From Subtercola sp. Z020 (GTDB taxonomy: Bacteria > Actinomycetota > Actinomycetes > Actinomycetales > Microbacteriaceae), in NCBI RefSeq assembly GCF_002931235.1, contig NZ_PSTT01000064.1, forward strand, positions 1-54,674: DNA of 54,674 nucleotides. Direction: 5' to 3'. Positions 10,602-12,414 of the stretch are shown here, piece by piece. The position numbers and the translations under genes were made by a program. The number at the start of each line of letters is the position of its first letter. Position 1 is the stretch's first letter. Under the pieces are notes generated by a model that saw only the letters and a program-made list of their open reading frames with translations, had not been told where the DNA came from and did no database searches.

Positions 10602-10940
<339 letters not shown>

Positions 10941-11750
10941 CTAGTGCTCGTCTGCGAGTGCGAGCTGGATGTAGACGGTCGTGAGCAGTGTGAAGACGTA
11001 CGCCTGCAGTACTGCGACCAGGATTTCGAAGAGGGTGAAGGCGAAGCCGAAGGCCAGTGTTCCGATGCTGAACAGCGAGAAGCCGTTGCCGAGCAGCAGG
11101 AAGAACGAGGTCGCCGTGAAGAACAGCACCAGCAGCAGGTGGCCGACGATCATGTTCATCAGGAGTCGGAGCGTCAGCGTGATCGGCCGGAGGATGAACG
11201 TCGAGACCAGCTCGATCGGGGCCACGATGATGTACAGCACCGGCGGCACTCCGGGCGGGAACAGCGAGTTCTTGAAGAACGCGGCCGGGTGTTTGCGCAC
11301 GCCCGCATAGATGAAGGTCACGTACGAGACGATCGCCAGAACGAGCGGCACACCGATCACCGAGGTGCCGGCAATGTTCAGGAACGGGATGATGCCGGTC
11401 AGGTTCATGAACAGCACCATGAAGAACATGGTGGTCAGGATCGGCAGGAACCGGCGACCGTCTTTCTTGCCGAGCAGGTCTTCGGCGATGTTCACTCGAA
11501 CGAGGTCGAGGCCCATCTCGACGAGGCTCTGGAAACGGCCGGGAACGATCTTCATCTTTCGCGTGCCGAGCCAGAAGACGATGATGATGGCCAGTACCGC
11601 GATGAACCGGATGATCATGATGCGGTTCAGTTCGAACGGCGTACCGGCGAAGAACAGAACATCAGGAAAAAACTCATTGATGGAGGGACCCGTAAAGCCA
11701 CCTTCATCGGTTGCTGTCGGGACTAGCAGGTTTACAGCGTTAGATAGCAG
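10941..11750 (-). CDS. atpB: ATP synthase Fo subunit a, probable CTG start
   Basis: A 269-aa proton-channel subunit. The essential arginine is Arg195 in LTLRLLMNM, and the C-terminal membrane helices are complete. The first ATG in frame (11618) lies inside the first membrane helix, after the conserved segment GPSINEFFP...GTPFELNRI, so it cannot be the start. Between that ATG and the upstream in-frame stop (TAG, about 11812) there is no ATG, GTG or TTG. A CTG at 11748-11750 has AGGAG six bases upstream and gives the N-terminus LLSNAVNLLVPTA, the expected length. I therefore annotate CTG initiation; a sequence error is the alternative. Confidence 0.88.
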   Translation of the reverse strand: MLSNAVNLLVPTATDEGGFTGPSINEFFPDVLFFAGTPFELNRIMIIRFIAVLAIIIVFWLGTRKMKIVPGRFQSLVEMGLDLVRVNIAEDLLGKKDGRRFLPILTTMFFMVLFMNLTGIIPFLNIAGTSVIGVPLVLAIVSYVTFIYAGVRKHPAAFFKNSLFPPGVPPVLYIIVAPIELVSTFILRPITLTLRLLMNMIVGHLLLVLFFTATSFFLLLGNGFSLFSIGTLAFGFAFTLFEILVAVLQAYVFTLLTTVYIQLALADEH

Positions 11751-11868
11751 CGCTTTCTCCTGTATCGGGGCGTGGAGCTCAGCTCTCGCGTCGACGAATG
11801 GGGGGTGTTGCTACAGATCGGGCCATGGAATACTGCGCCCGGTAGCGGTTCGAACAGACATCACTCTA

Positions 11869-12414
11869 TCAAGCTTTGGGGGTGGGAGACGAATCGTCAG
11901 GCGGTGAATTGAGCTTATTTTCGCCGTTTCGGCCATTCTTTTCGACATTCGGTAGAACTCCCGCTGAGCCGGGCAGCGACACGTCGCTGGCGTACGGCAT
12001 GCGGCTGCGTACGACGACCACCATGTCGACGATGAGGGTACCGATCACCCCGATGATGAGGCACAGGAACAGAACCGGGGTGTTCACCCACTCCTGCCCG
12101 CGCAGGAGCAGAGCCACCACGAGGAAGATGACGAACTTCAGCAGCCAGGCACCGAGCACGATCGCGAAGAAGAGCGCGGTGAACAGGGGCGAGGCGTAGT
12201 ACCGGTTGGCGATCAGGATGCTCGCTGCGGTGATCGCGAGGAAGACGAACGCCATCGCCGCGCCGATGACCGCGCTCGTGACACCCGTCCAGGAGTCGAC
12301 GAAGTACCCCACCACTCCCCCGACCACGATCAGGGCGACCGTGAAGACGGCGCCGACCACGAGGGCGCGGCGGAGGATGGGCGTCGAACTGAGAGTCGGC
12401 GTGGGAGAGGACAC
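11869..12414 (-). CDS. AtpI-like small membrane protein
   Basis: 181 aa with four predicted membrane helices (about 15-36, 42-64, 74-100 and 108-130) and a hydrophilic tail rich in Asn, Ser and Pro. Position directly upstream of atpB and the four-helix layout fit the ATP synthase protein I group, proposed to help assemble the c-ring, although sequence similarity is only general. GTG start at 12414, four bases after the wecA-type gene stop, so it probably continues that transcript. A promoter for the atp genes could lie in the 118 bp before atpB. Confidence 0.75.
   Translation of the reverse strand: MSSPTPTLSSTPILRRALVVGAVFTVALIVVGGVVGYFVDSWTGVTSAVIGAAMAFVFLAITAASILIANRYYASPLFTALFFAIVLGAWLLKFVIFLVVALLLRGQEWVNTPVLFLCLIIGVIGTLIVDMVVVVRSRMPYASDVSLPGSAGVLPNVEKNGRNGENKLNSPPDDSSPTPKA

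Follow-up and report, generated by a model that had tools for sequence, protein, structure and literature searches.

A probable CUG start codon of atpB and a conserved leader RNA in Subtercola and related Actinomycetes

Background

The closest described counterpart of the region analysed in this work is the atpB RNA motif (Rfam RF02916), which reportedly comes from Weinberg et al. 2017 and which is listed in Rfam as a cis-regulatory candidate of unknown function. The model of this family begins with a 5' hairpin, continues through CCAUCGCACCG, hairpin P2 and CGGCCCGAACACGGGAGAGAACG, and then passes over CUGAGCGUUACAAC; it covers GGGAGAGAACGCUGAGCGUUACAAC, i.e. it runs across a CUG triplet. As far as the start codon is concerned, the nearest parallel is infC, whose AUU is a rare bacterial non-AUG start. 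The likeness consists in a weak start that is kept phylogenetically in a highly conserved gene and likely has a role in setting its expression, whereas the differences are that infC uses AUU and that atpB would use CUG, encodes a membrane subunit of ATP synthase and carries a structured leader. According to a structural study (PMC11497404), CUG makes up 0.024% of bacterial start codons, yields in E. coli 0.86% of the expression obtained with AUG, and forms a weak C-U mismatch at the first position. We found no report of a CUG start of atpB in the literature searched, from which subscription papers were mostly absent, and an earlier description is therefore possible.

Results and discussion

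The start region of atpB

In the window, i.e. the whole 54,674-nt stretch of Subtercola sp. Z020 DNA that was analysed, atpB (subunit a of the F-type ATP synthase) occupies positions 10941..11750 of the minus strand and comprises 269 codons if counted from a CTG codon (11748..11750, minus strand). Its product is identified as subunit a by two curated models, each with a score above the cut-off (TIGR01131: residues 34-262, 138.9 bits, cut-off 102.6; PF00119: residues 45-262, E-value 1.1e-55, 189.3 bits, cut-off 33.9); the score against NF004482 was 163.7, under the cut-off of 225. The protein is a full match to the TIGR01131/PF00119 family, from which the gene of the window differs in its start codon and leader only, and it is the single AtpB match in the genome. 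Downstream lies atpE (subunit c; 10602..10844, minus strand; PF00137, E-value 2e-12) with a GTG start, and upstream an ORF without a Pfam match (11869..12414, minus strand), which takes the place of atpI and is named from this position.

The original prediction assigned the start of atpB to the CTG at 11750 on the basis of the preceding AGGAG and the absence of ATG, GTG and TTG from the start region, and both features were confirmed. The Shine-Dalgarno sequence AGGAG (11757..11761, minus strand) is separated from CTG by the six bases AAAGCG, the region is bounded by an in-frame TAG (11811..11813, minus strand), and between TAG 11813 and the first in-frame ATG (11618-11616, minus strand, residue 45) there is no ATG, GTG or TTG in frame. 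The in-frame CUG is hence found at Shine-Dalgarno distance without any canonical alternative, and it is kept across the relatives described below.

It is very improbable that the true start lies elsewhere, at a canonical codon downstream or a non-canonical one upstream, with CTG serving as an ordinary Leu codon; the candidates would be ATG 11618 in the window and, in its relatives, a GTG, TTG or ATG among codons 6-12. AtpB made from ATG 11618 would still contain the Pfam domain, which is first matched at residue 45, and many relatives possess an in-frame GTG, TTG or ATG within the first 22 codons, but no alternative codon is common to the relatives and the codons 16-44, all of them before the ATG, are under protein selection. 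Uncorrected Nei-Gojobori proportions calculated for 11 loci of the genus Subtercola gave for codons 16-44 a pS of 0.365 and a pN of 0.073 (ratio 0.20), similar to the ratio of 0.17 for codons 46-110, versus 0.72 for the 60 nt 5' of CTG read in frame. The invariant residues F24, P27, F33 and P35 (L106 numbering; 14 diverse AtpB proteins) likewise precede the Met at position 45, and TIGR01131 extends back to residue 34, whereas the Pfam domain reaches only to residue 45. The 44-residue coding stretch that had been proposed to precede the ATG is thus real by the measure of selection, and a start at ATG 11618 was rejected on this ground. Gene finders limited to ATG, GTG and TTG would plausibly miss the start of atpB and begin at residue 45 instead.

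An additional element was noted further upstream, where TTGATAGAGT (11863..11872, minus strand) is a candidate -10-like promoter sequence that shares bases with the stop codon of the ORF upstream of atpB. The pattern TTGATAGnnT occurs at -170 to -55 in 62 of the 138 loci with CTG (see below; expected: 0.1), and some of its bases double as the stop codon of the gene that precedes atpB. Judged by its position upstream of the leader, it would be the -10 region of a dedicated atpB 5' end. PMC3917460 reports for Corynebacterium glutamicum transcripts of 7.5 kb and 1.2 kb that begin upstream of atpB, which fits such a dedicated 5' end.

The start codon across Microbacteriaceae

A match to atpB was found in 298 of 299 genomes of the family, and we analysed a sample of 150 loci from 150 Microbacteriaceae genomes (78 genera), to which 46 low-scoring orthologues had been added because the matches were ranked by score. 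The rule by which starts were called fixed the distance to the Shine-Dalgarno sequence and penalised CTG against ATG, GTG and TTG. In spite of this penalty the rule returned CTG for 138 loci, TTG for 7, GTG for 4 and ATC for 1; CTG is the sole start in 70 of the 78 genera, its spacing from the Shine-Dalgarno sequence is 6 bases in 127 loci and 7 in 11, and the 12 non-CTG members start 5-9 bases after the same Shine-Dalgarno sequence. This rule superseded an earlier choice of starts by binding energy (153 loci: 132 CTG, 7 GTG, 7 TTG, 6 ATC, 1 none). It was run on 153 loci as well, and the three without a call, L012, L092 and L093, were excluded from the 150. Each is the second atpB copy of its genome (G011, G211 and G248), lacks both CTG and the leader and probably starts with GTG, and L012 may be a contamination. 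In another member of the family, L177 (genome g60), an apparent ATC start stands at the position of CTG.

If the codon is left free and only the Shine-Dalgarno sequence is required, a codon close to the aligned start is preceded at a distance of 6 or 7 bases by an in-frame GGAG in 144 of 150 orthologues; this codon is CTG in 136 of the 144 and never CTC. The nine conserved internal Leu columns of atpB, on the other hand, contain CTG in 39% (17-68% per column) and CTC in 48%, which argues against an ordinary Leu codon at the start column. Six of 137 CTG loci have a stop codon 1-5 codons 5' of the start, and L051, which reads TAA-GCG-CTG and thus has a stop just before GCG-CTG, also speaks against a start elsewhere. 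Canonical codons are absent between the upstream stop and CTG in 79 of 137 CTG loci (present in 58 of 137), and if the region is extended to codon 22 they are absent in 28 of 138, namely in the window and 27 others; hence, in most single genomes the sequence alone leaves other starts possible, and at the level of sequence comparison it is the shared pattern that proves the CTG start, not each genome singly.

A sequencing error is ruled out, since 138 of the 150 family genomes share CTG and the sequence around it; as 60 of the 80 named loci from actinobacteria (see below) have CTG too, the codon is neither such an error nor an oddity of one strain. The start at CTG proposed for the window is upheld by this comparison of 5' ends, by the TTG, GTG and ATC codons that replace it nearby in the remaining 12 orthologues, by the stops shortly upstream, and by its presence in Mycobacteriales.

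The start codon beyond Microbacteriaceae

Outside Microbacteriaceae, 34 loci from 14 families of the order include 18 with CTG (f9: 5/5; f7: 4/5; f16: 3/3; f3: 2/3; f11: 2/2; f12: 2/6), and sister loci of f12 have ATG or TTG close to the place of CTG. The top 80 among 572 named candidates comprise 60 loci with CTG, 10 with TTG, 5 with GTG, 3 with ATG and 2 without a call. Five of them received no call by the rule; of these, L217 and L237 were assigned ATG and L236 and L240 GTG by eye, whereas L249, like L260, stayed without a call. CTG is present in 14 of 14 named loci from Corynebacterium, Nocardia, Rhodococcus/Rhodococcoides and Gordonia, all in the context GGGAGAG(A)NCG-CTG-AGC, as well as in Cellulomonas, Actinotalea, Oerskovia, Isoptericola, Promicromonospora, Occultella and Brachybacterium. 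Brevibacterium daeguense has CTG and two other Brevibacterium have GTG, while six Actinomycetaceae are divided into CTG (1), ATG (2), GTG (1) and loci without a call (2). A search across the class revealed CTG in 7 of 7 f33-type loci, whose AtpB is about 50% identical, and in 20 loci of other families GTG (13), ATG (2), TTG (1), CTG (1, weak) and no call (3).

A tree of 145 AtpB proteins, calculated without the N-terminus, requires at least 16 changes between CTG and other starts, a minimal count which, the tree being quick and unrooted, does not separate gain of CTG from loss. The simplest reading is that CTG would be ancestral in Microbacteriaceae and Mycobacteriales, because the deep branch holds most of the CTG loci.

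A structured leader and frozen codons

Directly 5' of the Shine-Dalgarno sequence we identified the layout UCG-NN-[hairpin]-NN-CGA-N4/5-GGAG-N6-CUG. In the window (minus strand throughout) it corresponds to a stem P1, formed by UCG (11792..11794) and by CGA (11765..11767), which ends four bases before GGAG, and to a hairpin P2 (GCG-A-GAGC / GCUC-CA-CGC, 11770..11789). With each sequence parsed separately, P1+P2 in the strict form was found in 86 of 138 CTG loci (30 shuffles: mean 3.9, maximum 6) and the lenient element in 94 of 138 (20 shuffles: 9.25, maximum 19), i.e. they were not found in 52 and 44 loci, respectively. In 77 of the 86 each side of the internal loop has two bases. The letters of P2 vary (GC, CG, UA or AU at each step) with retention of the pairing through changes on both sides. 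In a 64-row MAFFT alignment 82.6% of cells are paired, versus 76.6% in shuffled and at most 48.9% in slid versions, and 25 cells are changed on both sides, versus 11.2 in shuffled versions and up to 28 in slid ones; the counts of double-change pairs and of pair types in these 64 rows were not above shuffles. P1 is without support from covariation because it hardly varies. RNAalifold predicted zero pairs for the same alignment because the lengths of the hairpins differ, and hence the per-sequence parsing was compared with shuffles. Searched against the genome of the window, the leader model gave one match of 103 bits, followed by the next at 21 bits.

The constraint on the RNA extends into the coding region of atpB, since codons 2-15 (11706..11747, minus strand) have frozen synonymous sites in the 11 Subtercola loci (pS 0.000, pN 0.071), versus a pS of 0.37-0.38 further on. 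A small hairpin P3 (AGCG/CGCU, 11736..11754, minus strand), which would hold CUG in its loop, is tentatively proposed: all 4 of its pairs are found in 77 of 138 CTG loci, versus 7 of 138 for the next best offset, and its folding energy is weak.

These features bear on two further explanations, neither of which we consider likely. One is that CUG is a plain weak start, kept only because little subunit a is needed, and that the leader is a ribosome-binding site of the usual kind in which hairpins occur by accident. The 0.86% of AUG expression given for CUG in E. coli in PMC11497404 would agree with this, and so would the GTG of downstream atpE and the CTG loci without P1+P2 (it is found in 0 of 20 Cellulomonadaceae-like and 0 of 7 f33-type CTG loci); yet P1+P2 is far above shuffles in Microbacteriaceae, the lenient element is present in 17 of 19 Mycobacteriales loci, the synonymous sites of codons 2-15 are frozen, and the leader of Mycobacteriales is listed by Rfam as a cis-regulatory RNA. 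The other, about which we are just as doubtful, is that the leader is essential for the use of CUG, which it would present together with the Shine-Dalgarno sequence to the 30S subunit, as compensation and not as regulation. In Microbacterium the element is kept in 15 of 16 CTG loci versus 1 of 8 TTG loci (in Microbacteriaceae, for the lenient element, in 94 of 138 CTG versus 2 of 12 non-CTG loci), and P3 could hold CUG in its loop, but the CTG loci of the Cellulomonadaceae-like and f33 types lack detectable P1+P2, so that a CUG start does not everywhere require the leader, and the test for loss of the leader together with CTG on the tree is not significant, because only three independent pairs are supported, with a consistent direction. 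The Microbacterium loci with TTG are L103, L109, L200, L233, L234, L243, L244 and L263, of which seven lack the leader element; in L200 the place of CTG is taken by CAG and the next codon is TTG.

Relationship to the atpB RNA motif

A scan of 14 loci against Rfam identified RF02916 in three, all from Mycobacteriales (131, 53 and 43 bits; Corynebacterium L259, Nocardia L242, Rhodococcus L252). In the window there is no match to any known Rfam family, and RF02916 itself gave none at E-values up to 10; its gathering cut-off (37.4 bits) was reached in 0 of 80 Microbacteriaceae genomes, and in 14 control genomes there were four matches, Corynebacterium glutamicum among them, one of which was over the cut-off. 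The motif nonetheless resembles the leader of the window in that it lies upstream of atpB and has a hairpin CCG..CGG followed by CC-CGA-N5-GGAG-N6-CUG; the leader of the window, correspondingly, is located directly 5' of atpB and its hairpin ends before CGA-N4/5-GGAG. From the course of the model it follows that in L242, L252 and L259 the 3' end of the motif would be the Shine-Dalgarno sequence, CUG and the first AtpB codons, i.e. the annotated RNA extends into the proposed coding start of atpB. The differences are that RF02916 has a second, 5' hairpin, with the loop GAUGUGCGACGGAGUCC, which in the window was neither seen by eye nor matched by the covariance model, and that the UCG/CGA stem is not drawn by Rfam.

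A Microbacteriaceae model (R1) searched against the leaders of Mycobacteriales yielded weak matches (L272, E-value 0.0088; L268, 0.027; L245, 0.039) in a search that covered 229 kb, with chance matches from an E-value of about 0.4. The layout suggests common descent of the leaders of Microbacteriaceae and Mycobacteriales. In the Corynebacterium atpB RNA (L259:1388-1514) inspection by eye revealed a possible pairing between the loop GUGCGACGG and CCAUCGCAC, which lies just before P2; this pairing is an alternative to stem P1.

While the CTG start of the original prediction stands, that prediction overlooked the leader, the absence of synonymous change in codons 2-15 and the connection with the Rfam atpB RNA. 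As judged from the loci compared, the phenomenon is wider than first supposed: it extends across the clade and is linked to an RNA element that is itself conserved.

How CUG would be read

We found 45 tRNA genes in the genome of the window (166 contigs), including three for tRNA-Met. The initiator tRNA (L347) has the anticodon CAU, a mismatched first pair and three G-C pairs in the anticodon stem, and the only tRNA with the anticodon CAG is an 87-nt elongator-type tRNA-Leu of the ordinary long form. It is hardly credible, therefore, that a special initiator tRNA reads CUG and that the codon is then not weak in these bacteria: the near fixation of CUG at the start site would suit such a tRNA, but none was found among the 45 genes of this 166-contig assembly, in which a tRNA gene may have been missed. 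With a normal initiator and an ordinary tRNA-Leu with CAG, CUG would most simply be read by the normal initiator through a C-U mismatch at the first position. The same genome encodes a 75-nt tRNA with the anticodon UAA (Leu) and no long variable arm (L353:101-175; contig C73, 11991-12064), alongside ordinary long tRNA-Leu genes.

Conclusions

We propose, with a probability of about 0.85 for the explanation as a whole, that translation of atpB is genuinely initiated at the CUG at 11750 within a translational control element; that the start is CUG is very probable. The ordinary initiator tRNA would read this codon and begin subunit a, and AtpB should accordingly carry fMet as its first residue. 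The codon would be part of a conserved 5' leader, in which P1 and P2 end four bases before GGAG and RNA-level constraint appears to continue to about codon 15, and this leader most likely sets, and may regulate, the rate at which ribosomes start on atpB. If initiation on atpB is controlled and kept at a low rate, a poor start codon preceded by a folded leader would be the expected arrangement, and the conserved CUG together with the folded mRNA suggests an overlooked control of the amount of subunit a. We infer that CUG could limit the synthesis of this subunit, which is consistent with the low efficiency of CUG in E. coli given in PMC11497404; the low initiation rate and its regulation would fit a purpose such as keeping subunit a below subunit c, a dosage role that we put forward as a hypothesis.

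A broader possibility, to which we give somewhat less than even odds, is an ancient translational control element in the atpB mRNA across much of Actinomycetes, of which a deliberately poor CUG would be the working part. RF02916 would be one version of this element, with the Shine-Dalgarno sequence, the start and the first codons as its 3' end, and by changed use of CUG the cell would adjust the synthesis of the proton channel either to its energy state or to how much of the other subunits is available.

If true, the retention of CUG as the start of so central a gene of energy metabolism, over much of several families of actinobacteria, would provide an exceptional case in nature for asking how ribosomes use CUG and why a poor start is maintained by selection. 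Tools that accept only ATG, GTG and TTG are then predicted to mis-annotate the N-terminus of AtpB, and a concrete hypothesis is offered for RF02916, an RNA family of unknown function. The long-standing question of what sets the ratio of 1 : about 10 between subunits a and c is concerned as well.
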